From positions 1-64,000 of the forward strand of contig CACNIK010000003.1 in the NCBI GenBank assembly GCA_902620525.1: DNA of 64,000 nt, read 5' to 3'. Positions 32,867 through 42,330 of this stretch are shown piece after piece (position 1 is the first letter of the stretch; each line of letters starts with the position of its first letter). The notes under the pieces were generated by a model, which worked only from the letters and a program-made list of their open reading frames with translations, did not search any database and was not told the origin of the DNA. This DNA is from an uncultured Pelagibacteraceae bacterium. GTDB lineage: Bacteria; Pseudomonadota; Alphaproteobacteria; Pelagibacterales; Pelagibacteraceae. Made by a program: the position numbers and the translations under genes.

Positions 32867-34234
32867 ATGAACATTATTATATGCGGTGCCGGTAAAGTCG
32901 GTTTTTCAATAAGCAAACAACTATCTTCTCAAGGTCACTCCGTTACAGTAATTGACCAATCATCAGAAGATATAAAAAAAATAAATGATACTCAGGATGC
33001 CAAAGGTATTGTTGGTAGAGCTACCTTGCCGACTGTTTTAGAAAATGCTGGGGCCGAAAATACTGATATGATTATTGCCGTTACAAGAAATGACGAAACA
33101 AATATGGTTGTGTGTCAATTAGCAAGTTCATTATTTAACATCCAAAAAAAAATTGCCAGAATAAGAACAAAAGATTTTTTAGAGGGAAAATGGAATAAGC
33201 TTTATAATAAATCAAATATTCCAATTGACGTTATAATTTCACCAGAAAGAGAGGTCGCTAAATCTTTATTTAGAAGATTAGAAGCACCAGGAGCACTAGA
33301 TAATGTTCCATTTGCTGGCAACAAAGTAAAAATGCTTGAAATAGCAATAGAGAGATCGTGTCCAATTATAAATATGCAGTTAAAAAAATTAACTGAAAAA
33401 TTTCCAAACTTTAAAGCTAATATTGTTGGTTTAGTTAGAAAAGAAAAATTTAAATTTTTAAAAAAAGATGACAAGATTATGGAAGGAGACAACGTTTATG
33501 TTGTTGTAAATAGTGATCAATTAAATGAAATTCTCAAAGCTTTTGGTCATGAAGAAAAAACCTCAAAAAAAATTTTAATTATAGGAGGTGGAAATATTGG
33601 TTTTCATTTAGCAAAAATGTTAGAAGAAAATTTTGAGGGTGCAAGAATAAAAATTATTGAAAAAAATAAAGCCAGAGCTGAAGAAATCGCTTCAGAATTA
33701 ACTTCATCAATTGTAATAAATGGAGATGCCTTGGATGAAGAAATATTAAAAGAAGCAAATTTAGAAGAGTCAGAAACAGTGCTTGCGTTAACAAATGATG
33801 ATGAAAATAATATTATGGCGTGTGTTCTTGCTGAAAAGGCAGGTCAAACAAAAAGGACAATAGCAATAGTAAATAAATCTAATTATAGTTTATTGCAAAG
33901 CTCGCTGAACATAGATGATTTAGTAGACCCAAGAATGACAACTGTTTCAAGAATAATGGAACATGTTCACAGAGGAACAATTGCTACAGTATATTCTCTT
34001 TTAGATGGAGAGTATGAATTTGTTGAGGCAAAAGTTTTGGAAAAATCAGAGCTTTTAAATAAAAAAATCAAAGATAGCAACTTACCTGAAAATACAAGGA
34101 TTGGAGCCGTAGTTAGAGGCAAACAAGTAATTATACCGAGAGGTGATTTTGTTTTCGAAAAAGATGATCTTGTTGTTCTTTTGTCTGGTAGAGATCAATT
34201 AAAAGATATAGAAAACATTTTTAGTATTATTTAA
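32867..34234 (+). CDS. trkA: Trk potassium uptake regulatory protein TrkA
   Basis: TrkA is the cytoplasmic NAD-binding gate of TrkH potassium channels. The 455-aa protein contains two tandem units, each a Rossmann domain (IICGAGKVGFSISKQL at 3-18; ILIIGGGNIGFHLAKML near 236-252) followed by a TrkA-C domain. It follows ntrX after 2 bases, the common alphaproteobacterial order. The membrane partner trkH is not in the window. Its end overlaps galE on the other strand by 8 bases. Confidence 0.95.
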   Translation: MNIIICGAGKVGFSISKQLSSQGHSVTVIDQSSEDIKKINDTQDAKGIVGRATLPTVLENAGAENTDMIIAVTRNDETNMVVCQLASSLFNIQKKIARIRTKDFLEGKWNKLYNKSNIPIDVIISPEREVAKSLFRRLEAPGALDNVPFAGNKVKMLEIAIERSCPIINMQLKKLTEKFPNFKANIVGLVRKEKFKFLKKDDKIMEGDNVYVVVNSDQLNEILKAFGHEEKTSKKILIIGGGNIGFHLAKMLEENFEGARIKIIEKNKARAEEIASELTSSIVINGDALDEEILKEANLEESETVLALTNDDENNIMACVLAEKAGQTKRTIAIVNKSNYSLLQSSLNIDDLVDPRMTTVSRIMEHVHRGTIATVYSLLDGEYEFVEAKVLEKSELLNKKIKDSNLPENTRIGAVVRGKQVIIPRGDFVFEKDDLVVLLSGRDQLKDIENIFSII

Positions 34235-35201
34235 TTTTTTTTTCCCAATCAACCGCAGTTTTAAGTATGTATTTAATATTATTAAATTTAGGTTTCCAAC
34301 CAAAAAATTTATTAAATTTTTCAGGATTTGCAATTATCATTTTACTATCTCCATCTCTTCTAGGACCTATTTCATAATTAATTTTTTTATCTAATATTTG
34401 GTTAAAAGTTTCAATTACCTCTTTGACAGAATAACCTTTTCCATAACCACAATTAAATATATCTGACTTTCCATTTTTAATTAGATGCTTAGCAGAAATT
34501 AAATGTATGTCTGCTAAATCAGATACATGAATAAAATCTCTTATTGGTGTTCCATCAAAAGTGTTATAATCATCCCCATTAATTGTAATTTTCTCTCTTT
34601 TACCAACTGCGACCTCACAAGCAATTTTAATTAAATGAGAAGAATGTTTTGAAATTAGTCCACAACGTAGTTTTTCATCAGAGCCAGCAACATTAAAATA
34701 TCTTAAAATAATATACCTAAGATCAATTTCTTTAGATTTCTTTTTTATAAATTCTTCAAGTTTTAATTTTGAGGTTGCATAAGGATTTAAAGGATTTGGA
34801 GGATCACTTTCTAAAACTCTCTCTTTCTTTGGGTTACCATAAACTGAAGCAGTAGATGAAAAAATTATTTTATTCAGCCCATTTTTAAAACAGATATTTA
34901 AAAAAATTTTAGCTTTTTCAAAATTGTATTCATGGTATTTTTTTGGCTCTTTAACTGACTCATCCACTCTTATTAACCCAGCGAAATGCATCACTAAATC
35001 AAATTTTTCTTTTATAATTATATCTTCTACTTTTTTTTCATCACTTATATCAGAGACAATTAGCCTTGCATTTTTTGGAATTAAATTTTTGTTACCTGTT
35101 ACTAAACTATCTATTACTATCACTTTATAACCTTTGTCCAATAATAAATTACAAACATGGCTACCAATGTACCCAGCTCCACCAGTCACTAAAATTTTCA
35201 T
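34227..35201 (-). CDS. galE: UDP-glucose 4-epimerase
   Basis: GalE interconverts UDP-glucose and UDP-galactose with bound NAD. The 324-aa extended short-chain dehydrogenase has GGAGYIGSH at 7-15, the SSTASVYG motif with Thr117, and Tyr141/Lys145 (YATSK). RYFNVAGSDE, and the substrate-side segment with DYNTFDGTPIRDFIHVSDLAD, are typical of GalE. Overlapping glf by 4 bases, it presumably supplies UDP-galactopyranose to the mutase, making UDP-galactofuranose for the glycan island. Confidence 0.94.
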   Translation of the reverse strand: MKILVTGGAGYIGSHVCNLLLDKGYKVIVIDSLVTGNKNLIPKNARLIVSDISDEKKVEDIIIKEKFDLVMHFAGLIRVDESVKEPKKYHEYNFEKAKIFLNICFKNGLNKIIFSSTASVYGNPKKERVLESDPPNPLNPYATSKLKLEEFIKKKSKEIDLRYIILRYFNVAGSDEKLRCGLISKHSSHLIKIACEVAVGKREKITINGDDYNTFDGTPIRDFIHVSDLADIHLISAKHLIKNGKSDIFNCGYGKGYSVKEVIETFNQILDKKINYEIGPRRDGDSKMIIANPEKFNKFFGWKPKFNNIKYILKTAVDWEKKIK

Positions 35202-36340
35202 TTAATTTTTTTCTTTATTTGTTCAAATTTTTTTAAAGCAGCAGAAATCGTCATATCCATATCGTAATACGCATAGTCTGCTAATCTTCCACCAAACTCA
35301 AATTTTTTAATTTTACTAGCTTCAAATTTATATTTCCTATGCTTTATTCTATTAACTTCATCATTAATAGGATAATAGGGTTCGTTATCATTTTTTATTG
35401 AGTATTCTTTAATCACTAGAGTTTGATTTGAATTAAAAGGTTTTCTCTCAGGATGTAAGTGTTTAGGCTCATGCACTCTTGTAAACTTATTTTTAAGATC
35501 TGGGAAATTGATTACTGAAGTTCCCTGATAATCTCTAGTTTTTTTAACTTCCTTTTTAAAGTTTAACGATCTCCACTCAAGTTTTCCAAATTTATAATTC
35601 AATAATGAGTCAAGAGGTCCAGTATAGATGGTTAAGTATTTTGGTTTAATTTTATATTTTAAATTATATTTCTCTCTAAATTTAATTTTTATATTTTTGT
35701 TTTTTGTTAAATTAATAAATATATCTTTATATCCTTTTTTTGGAATGCCCTGATATTGCGTTTGTTGATAATAGTCTTCATTATAACTGTATCTGATTGG
35801 CAGTCTATTAAAGATGCTCTCAGGCAAAAATTTGGGATTTTTACCCCACTGTTTTTGAGTATATCCCTTTATAAAAGCGTTATAAAGCTCCTTTCCAATT
35901 TGCGAAATAGCCTTATCTTCAAAATTTTTAAATTTATAATTTTTAAATTTTTTGGTTTTGTTTAAAATAAATTTTTCAGCTTCTATAGGACTAAAATTTT
36001 TTTTAAAAAAAGAATTAATTGTCTCAAGATTTATAGGCATTTGATATATTTTATTTTTATGATTACTCAATACTTGATGTCTATAGTTATTAAATTCAGT
36101 AAATTTATTGATGTAATCCCAAACTTTTTGATTTGCTGTGTGAAATATGTGAGTACCATATTTATGATACTCAATATTTGTTTTTTTATCTATCTCACTG
36201 AAAGAATTTCCACCGATATGATTTCTTCTTTCAATAATTAAAACTTTTTTATTAGATACGTTTGCCAGCCTTTCAGCCAATACAGCACCAAAAAATCCTG
36301 ATCCTACAATTAATATGTCTGGTTTATAAAGTTTACTCAT
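35198..36340 (-). CDS. glf: UDP-galactopyranose mutase
   Basis: Glf isomerises UDP-galactopyranose to UDP-galactofuranose with reduced FAD. The 380-aa protein has the N-terminal FAD fold IVGSGFFGAVLAERL, ERRNHIGGNSFSE, YHKYGTHIFHT, FIKGYTQKQWG, LPIRYSYNEDYY, the YTGPLDSLLNYKFGKLEWRSL segment (read with its neighbours, not as one motif), and GGRLADYAYYDMD at the C-terminus. The coupling to galE points to Galf-containing surface polysaccharide or LPS. Confidence 0.96.
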   Translation of the reverse strand: MSKLYKPDILIVGSGFFGAVLAERLANVSNKKVLIIERRNHIGGNSFSEIDKKTNIEYHKYGTHIFHTANQKVWDYINKFTEFNNYRHQVLSNHKNKIYQMPINLETINSFFKKNFSPIEAEKFILNKTKKFKNYKFKNFEDKAISQIGKELYNAFIKGYTQKQWGKNPKFLPESIFNRLPIRYSYNEDYYQQTQYQGIPKKGYKDIFINLTKNKNIKIKFREKYNLKYKIKPKYLTIYTGPLDSLLNYKFGKLEWRSLNFKKEVKKTRDYQGTSVINFPDLKNKFTRVHEPKHLHPERKPFNSNQTLVIKEYSIKNDNEPYYPINDEVNRIKHRKYKFEASKIKKFEFGGRLADYAYYDMDMTISAALKKFEQIKKKIK

Positions 36341-37895
36341 TTTTTATTTTCTTTATTACAGATAAAACTATACCATTTCTTTTAATTTGATGAACATTCT
36401 CTGCCCTATACTCATCATAACAATTAGTAATTTTATTATTTTTTTCAGATAATAACGTTCTATTAGTCATTATTACATATGTGGCATTATTTTTATTTGT
36501 TTGTTCAGATCTCTTATATTTTTGTTTCATGTATATTTTTGCTATTTCAGGATTTACCCCACAAGAATAAAATTTAATCCTACCATCACCTAAATTTGAA
36601 CTCAATATGAGCTCTTTTAAACTCGTAGACCAATAATCGTTCTCAAATTTCTTGTATCTAAGTTCTTTATTCCCTGAAAAAAAATTTAGAAAAGTATAGT
36701 GATAGGGGGTTATTGTTAAAAAATTTAATATATGAAAAGCAATTAAAAAAGATAAAGCAATTTTTATAATATTGTATAAAAAATTTTTGTTTATGAATAT
36801 TACGTAGATAGTTATCGATGGAATAATTACTAAATATGGGACGCTCCACAAAAAAAGTCTAACACCATCGTAAACAGGATAGGGAATTATTAAAAGCACC
36901 ATACTTGGATAAATTAATAAAAAAAAAGTTATTAATATTATTATATTAAAATTTTTGAATTTAGATTTTAAAAGCTTACGATTGTAAAATAAAATTGGAA
37001 TAGTCAAGATGTATAAAATAATTAAGAATTCTGGTAATTTATAAAAATAATTAATCAATAAATAATAATATGGTATATTATTAGATTCATAGTAATCACC
37101 GTTTAATAAATTAAATGACCAACCGACATCAATTGATAATGTTTTAATAAAAAATTCAAAGGGTAATTTGATTATATTACCGTGTGTGTCAACCCAAAAT
37201 AAAATAAGGATAAAGTAAAATATAAAAAGAAATAAGATAAAATCAGTTAATAAGATTTTTAAACTTTTTTTCTTAAAAAATAATATCACCATCAAAAAAA
37301 TTAAGATTATTGGAATTAAAGATCCTAAGAATAATAATTGAACCCCTGTCCCCAATGCTGTTAACACTGATATTTTTAAAATTAATATAATTTTTTTTTT
37401 AAACCTATAATCAAAAAACGTATATTTATAGATGTAATAAATAATCCAAACATGTGCAAAAGCTAAAATAATATCTTTAAAATTTATTGCAAAGTGACCA
37501 TAAAAAAAAGGAGTGAAAAAAAGGAAAATCGATGAAATTTTTGCAATAGATTTATTGAATAAAATTTTATTAAGTTTGTATAAACCAACTATTGTCATTA
37601 AGCCAAAAAAAGAATTTAAAATGTGATATACTTCTAAATTAAATTTCTGTGGAAACATTTGATTGATAAAACTCAATACAGTCCAATACAAAGTCGAATA
37701 ACGGTATTTTGAGAAAAATGGTTCATCTATTTGGCCAAAAGATAATAGATATTTTAAATTAATTTCTCCAATTTTCTGGTGATAGCTTTCATCCCATGAC
37801 ATCCCTATAATAAAAGAACAATAAAGCGTGTAAATAATAAAAAAGATTTTTATTTTTTTTTCTTGTTGAAGCAGAAGTGTAAAATATTTTTTCAA
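36333..37895 (-). CDS. GT39-like integral membrane glycosyltransferase
   Basis: The 520-aa protein has about ten or more membrane helices and resembles the GT-C family of dolichyl/undecaprenyl-phosphate-dependent mannosyl transferases (PMT/ArnT type). An acidic motif in the first loop, WDESYH (Asp35, Glu36), is the expected catalytic site, and FAINFKD (138-141) resembles the NPKD-type motif after the third to fourth helix. The likely role is sugar transfer from a lipid carrier on the periplasmic face; donor and acceptor cannot be told. It overlaps glf by 8 bases and follows the small membrane protein in the same operon. Confidence 0.7.
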   Translation of the reverse strand: MKKYFTLLLQQEKKIKIFFIIYTLYCSFIIGMSWDESYHQKIGEINLKYLLSFGQIDEPFFSKYRYSTLYWTVLSFINQMFPQKFNLEVYHILNSFFGLMTIVGLYKLNKILFNKSIAKISSIFLFFTPFFYGHFAINFKDIILAFAHVWIIYYIYKYTFFDYRFKKKIILILKISVLTALGTGVQLLFLGSLIPIILIFLMVILFFKKKSLKILLTDFILFLFIFYFILILFWVDTHGNIIKLPFEFFIKTLSIDVGWSFNLLNGDYYESNNIPYYYLLINYFYKLPEFLIILYILTIPILFYNRKLLKSKFKNFNIIILITFFLLIYPSMVLLIIPYPVYDGVRLFLWSVPYLVIIPSITIYVIFINKNFLYNIIKIALSFLIAFHILNFLTITPYHYTFLNFFSGNKELRYKKFENDYWSTSLKELILSSNLGDGRIKFYSCGVNPEIAKIYMKQKYKRSEQTNKNNATYVIMTNRTLLSEKNNKITNCYDEYRAENVHQIKRNGIVLSVIKKIKNE

Positions 37896-37903
37896 TGTAA
37901 ATT

Positions 37904-38182
37904 TTATTTTAACTCAGATGAAATTTTTTCTATAAACTTCTTAATTAGTATTGCATCCTCATTAGACAAAATTCGCTTTTTATCTAATCCGCTTTTTAGT
38001 TCAGATCTCACTTTATCCTTAATCATCTCTGTGGTTTCTTTATCTAGACTTGAAAGTTTATTCAAAACATCTAATTTGTCTGATAGAAATACATTATAAA
38101 AAACATTTAAAATTATTATGATAGAAAATGTTATTGCAATTAACTTGATAAAAAAAACTTTTAAATTAGTTTCAGACTTCAT
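37904..38182 (-). CDS. small single-helix membrane protein, function unknown
   Basis: This 92-aa protein is not recognised. An N-terminal membrane helix spans about residues 9-30, and the rest is a charged, predicted coiled-coil region (LSSLDKETTEMIKDKVRSEL) on the outside or inside. It lies 8 bases upstream of the GT39-like gene in the same direction, so it may be a partner or regulator of that enzyme. It shares a 37-base divergent promoter region with the GT2 gene. Confidence 0.6.
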   Translation of the reverse strand: MKSETNLKVFFIKLIAITFSIIIILNVFYNVFLSDKLDVLNKLSSLDKETTEMIKDKVRSELKSGLDKKRILSNEDAILIKKFIEKISSELK

Positions 38183-38219
38183 TTCTTTTACGCTATTTTT
38201 TTACAAACTTTAATTATTT

Positions 38220-38975
38220 ATGGTAAACAACCAAACTATAGATATAATAATTCCAAACTTTAATAAAGCTAAATATCTTGACCAGTGTTTAAATTCTATT
38301 ATTAACCAAACTTATAAAAATTGGAAAGTCTATTTGATAGATGATAATTCAAATGATAACTCAAAAGAAATACTATCGAAATATCAAAACATTGAAAGTA
38401 TTAAAATATTTAATTTAAAGGAAAATAATGGCCCCGCATATTGCAGAAATTTTGGTATACAAAAATCAAGCTCAGAGTTTATAGCCTTCATGGACTCTGA
38501 TGATTATTGGCCCAAAGATAAACTTGAAAAACAAGTAACAAGCATGTTGAGTATTAATTGCAATTTCACGTACACAGACTTTTGTTTTTTTTTTAATGAC
38601 GATCTTGAAAAAAAAAAAATGACAAATTTACCTTTAAAATACAATTATAATAGCTTTTTAAAACACTCCTCAATGAGTACTTCCTCAATCATTATCAGAC
38701 GAGAAATTTTAAATAATGTATTTTTTCAAAACGTAAATCATGAAGATTATTTGTTTAAATGTGATCTTTTGAAAAAAGGTGAAATTGCATATAAGATTGA
38801 AGAAACTTTTGCCTTTTACAGAATTAATAAAAATAATAGGTCTTCTAGTAAAATTAAAAATTTAATTAGTTTATGGCAAATAAATAAAGAAAAAAATAAT
38901 TTGAACTTTTTAACTAATTTAAAATCTATATTCTTTATCGGCCTCAACTCACTGAAGAAATATGGATGGAAATAA
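38220..38975 (+). CDS. family 2 glycosyltransferase
   Basis: The 251-aa GT-A enzyme begins with the family motif IDIIIPNFNKAKYLDQCLNS, followed by YLIDDNSNDNS and the acidic metal site Asp92-Ser-Asp94-Asp95 in AFMDSDDYW. GPAYCRNFGI is also typical. It resembles surface-polysaccharide glycosyltransferases (WcaA type). The donor sugar cannot be predicted. It begins the + strand pair of the glycan island and overlaps the next gene by 14 bases. It lacks a Shine-Dalgarno sequence. Confidence 0.88.
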   Translation: MVNNQTIDIIIPNFNKAKYLDQCLNSIINQTYKNWKVYLIDDNSNDNSKEILSKYQNIESIKIFNLKENNGPAYCRNFGIQKSSSEFIAFMDSDDYWPKDKLEKQVTSMLSINCNFTYTDFCFFFNDDLEKKKMTNLPLKYNYNSFLKHSSMSTSSIIIRREILNNVFFQNVNHEDYLFKCDLLKKGEIAYKIEETFAFYRINKNNRSSSKIKNLISLWQINKEKNNLNFLTNLKSIFFIGLNSLKKYGWK

Positions 38976-40050
38976 AAAAATAATTATTAAAAAAAAAACT
39001 AAAGTCTTTGTAATGGCGCCTGCCAATACATTTACTGGAGGACCAGAATTACTTCATCAAGTAGCAGCAGATATAAAAAAGACTTTTAAAGTTAATGTTA
39101 AGATGGTCTATTTGCCTTTCTTAGAAAATTATCCAGTCCATAATAATTTTAAAAAATACAAATTAGATTATTCTAATTTTATAGATGATGATGAAAAAAA
39201 TATATTAATAATCCCGGAACATTATCAATTTCTTGAACATTCACTAAAATTTAAAAAAATAAAAAAAATTTTATGGTGGTTAAGCGTTGATAACTATTTT
39301 GGTTACAAGTTTAGATATAATTATAACAAATTTTTAAGATCAATTATTAAAATACCGTTTAATATTTTCAAAATTTTAAATAAAGTAACTTTCAATAACC
39401 TTGGAATGTTTACTTATCATGATTACTTAAAATTTTTGTATAGTTTTTGTAATTTACGAAGATTTGAAGAATTAAAACAAATAGATTTACATCTAGCTCA
39501 GTCAAAATACGCTTATAATTATCTAAAAGCATATTTTAAAAATTTAAAGTTTCTTTCAGATTATCAAAGAGAGGAAATTTTAAAAGATTCAAAAAAACTC
39601 AAAAAAACAAAAAAAAATTTAATATGTTATTCAAGTAAAAGCAGCAAATTTATAGAAAATATAAAAAGTTCTCATAACTTTAAGATGATTAAATTGTCAG
39701 GATTTAATACCAAACAAATGATAAATATTTATAATAAAACAAAAGTTTATTTAGATTTTGGTTATCATCCAGGTAAAGATAGAATGCCAAGAGAAGCAGC
39801 GCTATTTAACAATTGTATTATTACAAATAAAAAAGGAAGCGCAAAAAATAAATTAGATATCCCAATTAGTGACAAATATAAGTTTGAAGAAAAAAAAATT
39901 AACTTAGAGAAAATATCAAAAACCATATTAAAAATATTTAAGAATTATCAAAAAGAACTTAAATACTTTAAAAAATATAAAAAAACTATTTTAAATGAAA
40001 AAAAAGAATTCCATAAAGATTTGAAAAAGATTTTTGTGAAAAAATTTTAA
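38962..40050 (+). CDS. putative glycosyltransferase of the glycan island
   Basis: The 362-aa protein has an N-terminal FVMAPANTFTGGPELLHQVA segment, like the glycine-rich donor-site loop of GT-B enzymes, and a C-terminal region KVYLDFGYHPGKDRMPREA (near residues 264-282) where GT-B proteins keep the E-x7-E region. The middle has many Lys and Asn residues. Family membership is inferred from this layout and the neighbourhood; it could be another kind of nucleotide-sugar enzyme. The start lies inside the end of the GT2 gene, suggesting joint expression. Confidence 0.6.
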   Translation: MDGNKKIIIKKKTKVFVMAPANTFTGGPELLHQVAADIKKTFKVNVKMVYLPFLENYPVHNNFKKYKLDYSNFIDDDEKNILIIPEHYQFLEHSLKFKKIKKILWWLSVDNYFGYKFRYNYNKFLRSIIKIPFNIFKILNKVTFNNLGMFTYHDYLKFLYSFCNLRRFEELKQIDLHLAQSKYAYNYLKAYFKNLKFLSDYQREEILKDSKKLKKTKKNLICYSSKSSKFIENIKSSHNFKMIKLSGFNTKQMINIYNKTKVYLDFGYHPGKDRMPREAALFNNCIITNKKGSAKNKLDIPISDKYKFEEKKINLEKISKTILKIFKNYQKELKYFKKYKKTILNEKKEFHKDLKKIFVKKF

Positions 40051-40057
40051 AATTCTG

Positions 40058-41146
40058 TTATTGAAATTCTAAATTATTCAGTTTTTCAAAAATTTTTTTA
40101 TTTCCTTCAAAATTAAAATGAACGTCATTTTTTATGTAATATTTATCTATAATCTTTTTAGCGTTTGAATTTTTTGTTTCATCAAAAAAGGAGGGAAAAT
40201 AATTGATAAAATATTTACATTTATTTTTACAAAAATCTTTCCAAATTTTCACTTGTTTAGAGTTTGCTTTATCGAATAATAATTGTCCTGGATAAGGGTA
40301 AACAGCAATAGAAAGAGAGATTTTTTTTTTGTTTAGATATTCATATAAATTATTCATATGAAGAATTGAATTTTGAATACCAATTTTAATATTTTGAGTC
40401 TCTTCAACAAAAGTCCAATTACTCCGAGCAAAATCTTTTCTGTAAATATAAACTTTAGGTTTGATTTTTCTTTTAATATTTTTCAAGCTTACTTTAATAA
40501 ATTCTAATAATGGAAATTTGATTTTTTCTTCTTTAAAGTTATTTTGAGGTATATTTTCTTTAATAATTCTATCACAAACTTTATTATTACAATCAATGTA
40601 ATAAAAAGCTTCATCTATAATATCGCTCATATCTAAAAAAACTATAACGTGATTTATTTTAAAGTTATAATTATCTAAAAAATATTTTATCTTATTTTTA
40701 TAAATGACTGGACTGTAAGACGAAACACCCATGTTCATAACGCGTAGATCCATTTTTTTGGAAAACATTCCACTAAAAGTATTTTTATATTCTAATCCAA
40801 TACCTTCAGTAAAACTATCTCCAATCAAAATGATGTTTTGATTTTGATTATCAATTTTGTCACAAAAATTTCTAAATCCAAATTTATCTGTACAAGTAAG
40901 ATATTGTTTCCCACCCCAATTTGATTGAGTTTTAATATCTTCTTTCAAAGTATGATGATATATTTTATTTTTAATTCTATATTTTTTTTCTTGTTTTTGA
41001 ATTTCTTCTAATCTTATTTTTCTTTTTTCATCAGATAATATAATTTCATTTTTATATAAATAATCTAAAATTATTTTTCCAAAAAAAAAGTCTGAGATTA
41101 AAAAAATTAAAACTGTGTATAATGAAACATAAAAAAATTTTTTCAT
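40058..41146 (-). CDS. membrane-anchored SGNH-fold enzyme
   Basis: The 362-aa protein has one N-terminal hydrophobic anchor (about 5-22) and an SGNH/GDSL-type catalytic domain. Block I is IILIGDSFTEGIGLE with Ser111, and the last block is NDVHFNFEGN with Asp341 and His343, the D-x-H pattern of AlgJ/AlgX-like acetyltransferases and related esterases. It probably adds or removes acyl groups on an exported glycan made by the neighbouring genes; the direction of the reaction cannot be told. It abuts the convergent glycosyltransferase gene with 7 bases between stops. No Shine-Dalgarno sequence is seen. Confidence 0.7.
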   Translation of the reverse strand: MKKFFYVSLYTVLIFLISDFFFGKIILDYLYKNEIILSDEKRKIRLEEIQKQEKKYRIKNKIYHHTLKEDIKTQSNWGGKQYLTCTDKFGFRNFCDKIDNQNQNIILIGDSFTEGIGLEYKNTFSGMFSKKMDLRVMNMGVSSYSPVIYKNKIKYFLDNYNFKINHVIVFLDMSDIIDEAFYYIDCNNKVCDRIIKENIPQNNFKEEKIKFPLLEFIKVSLKNIKRKIKPKVYIYRKDFARSNWTFVEETQNIKIGIQNSILHMNNLYEYLNKKKISLSIAVYPYPGQLLFDKANSKQVKIWKDFCKNKCKYFINYFPSFFDETKNSNAKKIIDKYYIKNDVHFNFEGNKKIFEKLNNLEFQ

Positions 41147-41170
41147 AGGTGGTCATTTTTTTATATAAAT

Positions 41171-41195
41171 AAATTAAAACTATTAGTTTTAATTT
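41171..41195 (-). terminator. AT-rich hairpin after tRNA-Thr, possible terminator
   Basis: A perfect 11-bp inverted repeat (41171-41181 with 41185-41195, 3-base loop) begins immediately after the encoded CCA of tRNA-Thr on the minus strand. The following minus-strand sequence is U-rich (ATTTATAT). It could end the rlmB-tRNA transcript or guide 3' processing. All pairs but one are A-T, so it is a weak terminator at best. Confidence 0.45.
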
Positions 41196-41271
41196 TGGTG
41201 CCCTCACACGGACTCGAACCGCGAACCTATTGATTACAAATCAATTGCTCTACCAATTGAGCTATGAGGGC
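41196..41271 (-). tRNA. tRNA-Thr (anticodon TGT)
   Basis: A full cloverleaf reads on the minus strand: acceptor GCCCTCA with TGAGGGC, anticodon stem ATTGA/TCAAT enclosing the loop TTTGTAA, T-loop GGTTCGAGTCC, and an encoded CCA (41196-41198). The anticodon TGT specifies Thr. It follows rlmB by 36 bases and is probably co-transcribed with it. In many bacteria tRNA-Thr sits in front of tuf on the same strand; here it is inverted. Confidence 0.95.
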
Positions 41272-41307
41272 TTAAATCAGAATAAATATACCAAAAAAGT
41301 GATACAA

Positions 41308-42063
41308 TCAATTTTTTTTATTGGTAATAACCTTATTAATATGATGGCAAACTATTGCAACAGAGTTTGCTATATTCAAACTTTCCATTTGTTTATTTAT
41401 AGAAATTTTGAAAATAAAATCAGAGTTTGCTACTGTATTTTTGTTCAAGCCAAATCCTTCAGAGCCAAATAATAAAACATTTTTACCATCCCATTTATTT
41501 TCAGTGAAGTCTTTACCGCCCTCACTATCAAAAGCACTTACCCAAAAATCTTTACTTTTTAAAAATCTTAACGTTGTATTAATATTTGATACTTGAAAAA
41601 TATTTAAATGTTCCATTCCGCCACTGGCACTTTTAAATAACAGTTTACTTTTGAATGGAAACGACCGCTCTTTAACAATTAAACCATCCAAATTAAAACT
41701 AGTTGCACATCTTATAATTGATCCTATATTTCTTGGATCTGTTACCTCCTCAAGCGCCAAAAAATTAATATTTTTTTTCTTGGTATTTTTTAAATATTCC
41801 TTGATAGTTGTATTTTCTATATTCTCTACCTCAGCTACTATATTTTGATGCGAAATATCCTCTTTACCGCATAAATTATCAATTTCTCTTTTTGTTTTAT
41901 AAAAAACATGAACCTTTTTAACTAAATTTTCACTTTGATTATCTCTATTCAATTTCTTAAGAGCATCTTCAGTTATAAATAGACGATGTACCTTTCTTTT
42001 AGGGTTTCTAAGAGCTTCGGTTACAGCATGTCTACCAACGATCAAAAATGTTGTTTTTTTCAT
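41308..42063 (-). CDS. rlmB: TrmH-family 23S rRNA 2'-O-methyltransferase (RlmB type)
   Basis: The 251-aa SPOUT methyltransferase has an N-terminal substrate-binding domain (VGRHAVTEALRNPKRKV) and the catalytic trefoil-knot motifs NFLALEEVTDPRNIGSIIRC, VLLFGSEGFGLN and SLNIANSVAIVCHH. RlmB methylates G2251 of 23S rRNA in the peptidyl-transferase loop; other TrmH relatives act on tRNA, so the exact target is inferred. A GAGGG ribosome binding site stands before the start. It is divergent from the tRNA-tuf cluster. Confidence 0.9.
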   Translation of the reverse strand: MKKTTFLIVGRHAVTEALRNPKRKVHRLFITEDALKKLNRDNQSENLVKKVHVFYKTKREIDNLCGKEDISHQNIVAEVENIENTTIKEYLKNTKKKNINFLALEEVTDPRNIGSIIRCATSFNLDGLIVKERSFPFKSKLLFKSASGGMEHLNIFQVSNINTTLRFLKSKDFWVSAFDSEGGKDFTENKWDGKNVLLFGSEGFGLNKNTVANSDFIFKISINKQMESLNIANSVAIVCHHINKVITNKKN

Positions 42064-42155
42064 AAAAACCCTCGTTTTTTTTCAAATAATTAGCATATTT
42101 TAACGTAAAATGATTTATTGCATTTATTGCACAAATGCTTATAAAACCCTTGTTG

Positions 42156-42185
42156 TTGAATGCTTTTTAAGTTAGTGGGTATCCC
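42156..42185 (+). promoter_or_regulatory. candidate promoter of the tRNA-Tyr/Gly/tuf transcript
   Basis: TTGAAT (42156-42161) and TATCCC (42180-42185) are 18 bases apart; the start would fall a few bases before tRNA-Tyr at 42198. The -10 match is poor. The rest of the 134-base region between rlmB and tRNA-Tyr shows nothing else recognisable. Confidence 0.3.
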
Positions 42186-42197
42186 TAAAGAATATTT

Positions 42198-42283
42198 GGA
42201 GGGGTACCAAAGCGGTCAAATGGGGCGGGCTGTAAACCCGTTGACTTCGGTCTTCGAAAGTTCGAATCTTTCCCCCTCCACCA
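42198..42283 (+). tRNA. tRNA-Tyr (anticodon GTA)
   Basis: Acceptor GGAGGGG pairs with CCCCTCC; the anticodon loop CTGTAAA reads GTA for Tyr. The long variable arm (class II) lies before the T-arm GTTCGAATC, and CCA is encoded at 42281-42283. It is first in the tRNA-Tyr, tRNA-Gly, tuf, tRNA-Trp array. Confidence 0.95.
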
Positions 42284-42330
42284 TACTTAATAGTGTTTGA
42301 CTACATAAGAGCGTGTTAAGTTTGGATTTT

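Follow-up and report, generated by a model that had tools for sequence, protein, structure and literature searches.

A putative allele-shuffled surface-glycan cassette between trkA and tRNA-Thr in SAR11 bacteria, with a small membrane protein gene paired to a GT-C glycosyltransferase gene

Replacement flexible genomic islands were described in aquatic prokaryotes by Lopez-Perez et al. (2014, PMC4033161). In SAR11, four hypervariable regions (HVR1-HVR4) were reported by Wilhelm et al. (2007, PMC2217521), of which HVR2 spans 48 kb between the 23S and 5S rRNA genes, and HVR2 glycan variation together with high recombination appears in further papers (PMC7318151, PMC7542561), the accessible parts of which do not name the locus described here. 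Gtr and other multi-component transmembrane glycosylation systems combine a membrane glycosyltransferase of the GT-C class with a small membrane protein and often a family 2 glycosyltransferase (GT2) (PMC8035078, PMC11127046). We analyzed a stretch of 64,000 nucleotides (nt) from a SAR11 (Pelagibacteraceae) genome (contig CACNIK010000003.1 of assembly GCA_902620525.1, positions 1 to 64,000), called the window below, in which a surface-glycan cassette lies between trkA and tRNA-Thr. It comprises galE, glf, a GT-C gene, the gene of a small single-pass membrane protein (sTM), a GT2 gene, a gene for a GT-B-fold transferase (GTx) and an SGNH gene. We give a probability of roughly 70% to the reading that the locus represents a surface-glycan cassette with mostly fixed slots and shuffled alleles, in which the GT-C enzyme with its small partner would act on a variable, probably galactofuranose (Galf)-bearing glycan.

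The cassette resembled the islands of PMC4033161 in its recurrence at the same site in related strains, in its genes for exposed structures, in exchange by homologous recombination, and in a boundary with an excess of synonymous change, which here falls in rlmB. Same site, different alleles and a recombinant boundary, the three marks of a replacement island, were all found. Unlike those islands, the cassette measures only ~7 kb, its slots are conserved, single genes or pairs are exchanged instead of the whole island, and in the window the boundary signal was seen only at the right edge. As in HVR2, the variability concerns surface glycans, and HVR4 is likewise flanked by tRNA genes, but the cassette differs from HVR2 in size and site, and the gene tables of HVR1, HVR3 and HVR4 in the accessible text do not contain these glycan genes (PMC2217521). 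The cassette site may lie near HVR3 or HVR4 of HTCC1062.

The window was compared with 17 loci of its clade, some of them cut by contig ends, and 37 loci were mapped overall. Clade identities were taken from the best open reading frame (ORF) of the same cluster covering >60% of the length in the window. Among the clade loci, galE was present in 17/17, a full-length GT-C gene in 15/17, glf, sTM and GT2 in 14/17 each, GTx in 12/17 and SGNH in 0/17. The absences of GT-C, sTM and GT2 fell at contig ends, where pieces of the GT-C gene remained. L128 carried two extra genes, and in L131 the stretch from tRNA-Thr to rlmB contained five. Across the genus as a whole, glf was rare, being found in 2 of the 36 same-genus relatives searched (G001 and G016), many of which are incomplete genomes, and outside the genus there was a single 46-residue match in another family. 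On this sequence comparison, the cassette is specific to the clade and fixed in place, and it is not a random strain island.

The interval from tRNA-Thr to rlmB appeared as a hotspot throughout the genus (L067, L077-L083, L109, L114). It contained no ORF in G006, G011, G024 and G036, one in G013 and G015, two in G028, five in G016 and G033, and seven in G021. In the clade locus L138, five ORFs of one family (188-200 amino acids (aa), one of them inverted), running from ~4.4 kb up to GTx, adjoin GTx at the place expected for tRNA-Thr and rlmB.

The alleles of galE and glf fell into two discrete types. Type I proteins were 71-90% (GalE) and 84-95% (Glf) identical to those of the window, and type II proteins 42-44% and 44-46%, while the neighboring trkA was 89-99% identical to the window's across all clade loci. 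In the full matrices, identity within types was 67-97% for GalE and 78-98% for Glf, and between types 40-45% and 43-48%, respectively. Moreover, the galE type equaled the glf type in 13/13 sequences of the matrix and in 14/14 glf-bearing clade loci. That type II proteins might be different enzymes was rejected, as the copies of L067 and L136 still score as GalE (346 and 341 bits with TIGR01179, above the cut-off) and as UDP-galactopyranose mutase (307.1 bits with TIGR00031 for L067, above the cut-off, and 294.3 bits for L136, just below it). A core tree was built from four left-flank core proteins of the window and 14/17 clade loci (L129, L141 and L157 were omitted). This tree rejected type II as a single clade (approximately unbiased test, p 0.005) and required four changes of allele type by parsimony, at least two of which are forced by well-supported branches. 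In addition, the GT-C protein of L135 was 87% identical to that of L131, a type II locus, and the galE and glf of L135 were type I and its remaining cassette window-like. This single locus suggests that the GT-C gene can be replaced alone. The L135 contig (NHDJ01000029.1) comes from a metagenome-assembled genome (MAG) labeled Verrucomicrobia TMED56 and has the SAR11 order ntrY-ntrX-trkA-cassette-tRNA-Thr; it looks like a misbinned Pelagibacteraceae contig.

The presence of glf went together with that of GTx. GTx was present in 13/13 glf-positive sequences in which both positions are visible (window included) and absent in 2/2 visible glf-negative loci (L126 and L130). In L140, outside the clade, GTx, glf and galE adjoin one another. 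Since GTx comes and goes with glf, it is the best candidate for the Galf transferase. These comparisons indicate that the variation of the cassette is homologous exchange in mostly fixed slots, with the galE-glf block apparently replaced as a unit. The preliminary description had expected variation between strains, and this was borne out mainly as allele exchange, with the glf/GT-B pair either there or missing and with genes added next to tRNA-Thr. It had also named the same gene set, conserved with normal divergence in all relatives, as the finding that would contradict it. The set was conserved in the clade, but glf occurred in only 2/36 same-genus relatives, and the divergence was bimodal and mosaic, not normal.

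The features of the locus are as follows (window coordinates):
32867..34234, + strand: trkA, left core flank; its 3' end shares 8 nt with galE.
34227..35201, - strand: galE, UDP-glucose 4-epimerase, type I allele (TIGR01179; allele matrix).
35198..36340, - strand: glf, UDP-galactopyranose mutase, type I allele (TIGR00031, PF03275; allele matrix).
36333..37895, - strand: GT-C membrane glycosyltransferase (PMT_2/ArnT-like), TTG start, 520 aa (AlphaFold model).
37904..38182, - strand: sTM, single-pass membrane protein (92 aa) that belongs to no known family; its gene is the partner of the GT-C gene.
38183..38219, no strand: 37-bp gap separating divergent transcription units (ORF coordinates).
38220..38975, + strand: GT2 glycosyltransferase, TuaG-like (PF00535; NF047683 below its cut-off).
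38962..40050, + strand: GTx, GT-B-fold transferase without Pfam family, candidate galactofuranosyltransferase (model).
40058..41146, - strand: SGNH/GDSL-like protein with hydrophobic N-terminal segment (motif level).
41196..41271, - strand: tRNA-Thr(TGT), right cassette border.
41050..42300, no strand: imported tract, approximate limits (sliding identity; rlmB dS).
41308..42063, - strand: rlmB with imported allele, right core flank.

At the right edge, the window was 95-98% identical to L128 between 41.3 and 42.05 kb and 78-87% identical to L124/L125 in sliding comparisons, and L124/L125 were its nearest kin over most of the remaining sequence and again the closest beyond ~42.3 kb. The synonymous divergence (dS) of rlmB from L124/L125 was 1.7-1.8, compared with 0.22-0.74 in eight other genes tested, a pattern that matches the boundary signal of replacement islands in the accessible text of PMC4033161. 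SGNH, absent in all ten loci of the sliding-identity comparison, adjoins the other side of this imported tract of ~1 kb. The simplest reading is that SGNH was brought in with the tract by homologous recombination, the right-hand crossover falling close to the conserved tRNA-Tyr/tRNA-Gly genes. The donor of SGNH itself would have been L128-like; L128 carries other genes at that place. Relatives of SGNH were found in L154, beside an sTM-GT-C pair (36% identity), and in G021, within a stretch rich in glycan genes (29%). The dS of sTM (37904-38182) against L124/L125 was only 0.22-0.27, about half that of its neighbors, possibly by chance in 92 codons.

All ORFs listed by the preliminary description, namely galE, glf, a GT39-like (GT-C) gene, a small membrane protein gene, two divergent transferase genes and SGNH, lie where it had placed them, and its core genes on both flanks are trkA on the left and rlmB on the right. 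galE, glf, the GT-C gene and sTM are transcribed leftward, GT2 and GTx rightward, and SGNH leftward, facing GTx. The ORFs are tightly packed, with overlaps of 4-14 nt at several junctions, and the G+C content of the cassette (0.21-0.28) is at the low end of the window range. Repeats inside the locus look like low-complexity A/T matches. All six cassette genes tested showed purifying selection (dN/dS 0.04-0.13, window against L124 and L125), which was weakest in GT-C, followed by sTM and GT2, and no gene-level positive selection was detected in the comparisons of the window with L124 and with L125 (dN/dS 0.01-0.13).

The identification of GalE was secure (376.2 bits with TIGR01179 against a cut-off of 262.3), as was that of Glf (338.7 bits with TIGR00031 against 303.75; 198.5 bits with PF03275). 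The GT2 protein matched PF00535 with an E-value of 3.9e-36 and the TuaG-like family NF047683 with 7.7e-48, at 163 of the 400 bits of its cut-off. The SGNH-like protein had a Pfam match of E 0.059, below the cut-off, with GDSFT and D-x-H-F kept in 3/3 homologs. No Pfam match was obtained for GTx, and its structure model (mean predicted local distance difference test score, pLDDT, 85.6) had a GT-B fold resembling GT4-type enzymes, with 114 matches at E <= 0.001. The AlphaFold model of the GT-C protein (mean pLDDT 85.5) gave ArnT 5f15 as its top fold match (Z 24.4, root-mean-square deviation 6.8 over 416 residues), and over both ArnT structures (5f15, 5ezm) Z was ~24 across 401-416 residues. The GT-C fold is thus shared with ArnT, but sequence identity is 10-11%. 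The leading fold matches all belong to the GT-C class. Asp35 (D35) of the GT-C protein was invariant in 34/34 homologs and may be the catalytic Asp of the first external loop. The entropy profile of the protein showed no simple pattern of conserved and variable zones, and searches of the GT-C, GTx and sTM sequences against solved structures gave chance-level matches only. Of the 37 named records with a GT-C relative, 36 are titled Pelagibacteraceae or Pelagibacterales. A phage origin of the GT-C gene, the one gene searched for this, was rejected: there were 0 matches among 50,697 phage records, and of 42 stretches in IMG/VR that fit the pattern, 0 were confirmed by tblastn.

The association of sTM with the GT-C gene extended well beyond the clade. 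A sequence search with sTM gave 23 matches across 61 genomes, and a profile search gave 50 matches in 45 of 297 genomes from the order, confined to a single family and to 4 of 11 genera; the flanks of every match were examined as far as the contig allowed. The GT-C gene was the next ORF in 22/23 matches of the sequence search and two ORFs off in the remaining one (L114). In the profile search it was adjacent in 45/50 and two ORFs off in L211, L219, L236 and L240, and L226 lies at a contig end. In the union of both sets, which share six copies, 61/67 sTM genes directly adjoin a GT-C gene and 66/67 lie within two ORFs of one. With the first GT-C model, direct adjacency was found in 18/23; G027, where sTM is cut by the contig end right before GT-C, was added, and a second model added L115, L186 (a GT-C fragment at a contig end) and L188. 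This second model was built from nine sTM-adjoining proteins, which makes its E-values for such members circular, but not the adjacency itself. Loci found through GT-C were kept outside the 61/67 unless the sTM search hit the same genome independently. Conversely, 77 loci were examined, some of them selected for GT-C and some present twice (L127, L129, L131 and L153 duplicate the contigs of L069, L066, L067 and L109, respectively). Among these, 7/54 GT-C ORFs had no adjoining sTM; four of these are at contig ends (L069/L127, the same contig, L141 and L157), and in L114 sTM is two ORFs off. In L115 (G022:C3, 9.4-11.3 kb) the sTM-adjoining GT-C is split in two frames, by gene decay or assembly error. 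In L114, L211, L219, L236 and L240, an ORF of 229-236 aa that overlaps sTM by 4-8 nt stands between sTM and GT-C. L137 and L139 share a cluster near GT-C of a radical-SAM-like protein of 387-408 aa, a Rieske-like protein of 102 aa, a protein of 206-209 aa and two GT2s (names by eye), and of the two L139 has sTM and L137 does not.

The order, orientation and genomic site of the pair all vary, and its sites include trkA/tRNA-Thr, nadK/tRNA-Thr, grxD/rpsD, a position beside putative sucC, and others. The names nadK, trkH, sucC, bolA, grxD and rpsD, like those of "synthase-like" GT2s (C1:212 and C1:53 kb) and of a "glycan region," were given by sequence reading. sTM proteins gave weak, scattered matches in Pfam (best E 0.003 for 29 sTMs), the window copy matched no NCBIfam family, and comparison with solved structures yielded nothing better than E 0.04. 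Their alignment shows one hydrophobic segment, counted like all transmembrane segments here by a simple hydropathy scan, and behind it a charged tail in which K, R, E and D positions are conserved; by eye, this tail would be helical and periplasmic. Because the gene pairing is near-invariant, we infer that sTM is a dedicated, previously undescribed partner of GT-C. A stronger version makes sTM the constant subunit of a two-part GT-C family of Pelagibacteraceae and stands at about even odds; there, one conserved, periplasm-facing partner would serve many diverging, swappable enzymes at several sites and allow a switch of surface structure without phage-borne seroconversion genes.

Alternatively, sTM may be no partner of GT-C, and the genes may merely co-travel, either inherited jointly or moving as a mobile module of two genes. 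The pair does recur at several sites, seemingly moving as a unit, with variable order and orientation. However, the adjacency persists in convergent pairs (e.g., L110, L112, L113, L206 and L210), where the genes are therefore not on one transcript. Proximity within two ORFs in nearly every sTM copy, as counted above, also argues against co-travel, as does the better conservation of sTM in the clade (median identity 82%, against 59% for GT-C). We consider co-travel without partnership unlikely, though it retains an appreciable share of the probability.

The families of GalE and Glf have established activities, converting UDP-glucose to UDP-galactose and on to UDP-Galf. With both enzymes encoded, the cell would make UDP-Galf by this route, and the supply of UDP-Galf proposed by the preliminary description gained support from scores above curated cut-offs; the glycan function of the locus was supported as well. 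On the cytoplasmic face, GTx would then transfer Galf and GT2 a further sugar to an acceptor glycan whose main synthesis genes would be located elsewhere in the genome. On the periplasmic face, GT-C would add a sugar from a polyprenyl-phosphate-sugar donor, as its fold suggests, made by a synthase encoded elsewhere. sTM may be a subunit that keeps GT-C stable or brings the donor or the acceptor to it. The surface structure met by phages and grazers would change with replacement of the galE-glf block, with the joint presence or absence of glf and GTx, and with the SGNH add-on at the tRNA-Thr end beside the imported homologous tract. Six GT2 matches, that of the cassette included, were found in the genome, one of them synthase-like at C1:212 kb; at C1:53-55 kb a GT2 adjoins a PMT_2 protein, and C1:115-130 kb is a larger glycan-looking stretch. 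Because other GT2s are present in the genome and no flippase, polymerase, ligase or synthase was seen in the cassette, the cassette most likely decorates a glycan made elsewhere. That this glycan is possibly acylated had also been proposed; an SGNH gene is present in this genome, but it is the sole basis for the proposal and occurs in 0 of the clade loci compared.

The GT-C enzyme might instead glycosylate secreted proteins, as PMT enzymes do, or a lipid, and not a polysaccharide. Pmt4 and oligosaccharyltransferases are among its fold matches, and PMT_2 (PF13231) was detected in 24/34 aligned GT-C homologs (at E-values up to 0.1, the lowest being 1.2e-8), although the protein of the window itself had no Pfam match. 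On the other hand, ArnT and ALG12 fit equally well or better, and in several loci nucleotide-sugar and glycan-tailoring genes, named partly by eye, are neighbors. A protein or lipid target is the less favored option, with a minority chance similar to that of co-travel. More doubtful is a three-component, Gtr-like seroconversion system with sTM as the flippase. The set of GT-C, small membrane protein and GT2 does resemble Gtr and Gram-positive multi-component systems as the accessible texts describe them (PMC8035078, PMC11127046), and GT2s resembling polyprenyl-phosphate-sugar synthases lie near the pair in L109, L209, L220, L222 and L223. But sTM has one hydrophobic segment by inspection, against the 3-4 given for GtrA proteins in those texts, GtrA was not among the families listed for 29 sTMs, no recognized synthase or flippase occurs in the window's cassette, and its only GT2 is TuaG-like by NCBIfam (below the cut-off), other GT2s being elsewhere in the genome.

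Several observations weigh against the reading of a fixed-slot cassette with a GT-C partner. In L130 the cassette genes are reordered, glf and GTx are missing and extra genes are added, and the right flank of L138 differs, with no tRNA-Thr and rlmB there. The inner branches of the core tree are mostly weak, with only 3/12 well supported, which makes the count of exchanges uncertain. L135, the mosaic locus, was taken from a MAG and may be chimeric. The link between glf and GTx depends on two glf-negative loci, and a second glf in G016 (L068, G016:C1, 8501-10494) lies beside a GT2 and tRNA-Met with no GTx adjoining. L137 and L145 are real exceptions of GT-C without sTM, a direct search with three sTMs being also negative, and the adjacency of GT-C and sTM may result from joint inheritance without physical contact. 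Finally, flippase, polymerase, ligase and polyprenyl-phosphate-sugar synthase were not seen in the cassette by inspection, which leaves acceptor and donor as guesses. The second glf of G016 is 74% identical to the type I glf of the window, and the cassette glf of the same genome is type II.

The left border of the cassette was accounted for by a rearrangement of the chromosome. In 20 genomes of the genus trkH comes after trkA, and one further locus stops at trkA; the window has the cassette there. Five loci of another family show no trkH beside trkA, which restricts the argument on the direction of change to the genus. Among nine maps of the tRNA-Thr/rlmB side, nadK is the far border in seven (G006, G011, G013, G015, G024, G028 and G033), and in G021 and G036 it lies outside the stretch fetched. 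In the genome of the window, trkH adjoins nadK on another contig, as it does in G016; no trkH beside nadK turned up in G001 (60% complete) and G027 (72% complete). A single inversion of the segment from trkH to tRNA-Thr would explain these junctions; it would measure ~190 kb if G021 is taken as a guide, and the orientations in G021 agree. Since G011 and several named relatives carry sTM-GT-C in the interval from nadK to tRNA-Thr, the pair was probably at the site before the inversion.

A classical island inserted at tRNA-Thr by an integrase and varying as a block between strains would suit the tRNA gene at the border, the low G+C and the content varying across the genus, but it was rejected as highly improbable, given that 0 integrase families matched among the cassette proteins, that the tRNA-Thr 3' end had no match at 33.5-36.5 kb better than in shuffled sequence, that within the clade, to the extent that contigs cover it, identical slots are found again at this place (apart from the rearranged L130), that variation is gene- and block-wise, and that the left border is an inversion breakpoint. 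The preliminary description had likewise found neither integrase nor direct repeats, while its suggestion of a tRNA-bordered island was not supported, the trkA border being a product of inversion and not of insertion.

Exchange of islands by recombination and decoration of glycans by GT-C enzymes are already known. Neither the near-obligate pairing of sTM with GT-C nor bimodal blocks of galE and glf at one small, fixed site were found described in the titles and abstracts that searches of open-licence PMC papers returned, and the combination of SAR11 with UDP-galactopyranose mutase matched there only a work on lake phage genomes.

SAR11 bacteria are among the most abundant marine bacterial groups, and to our knowledge little is known of how their phages meet the cell surface. 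A compact cassette at a fixed position, with two discrete alleles and a visible mechanism of exchange, would offer a tractable marker with which single-cell genomes could be used to relate surface type to phage susceptibility. Furthermore, the pairing of sTM with GT-C suggests that a class of membrane glycosyltransferases has a partner so far overlooked, found only through the comparison of many small genomes.

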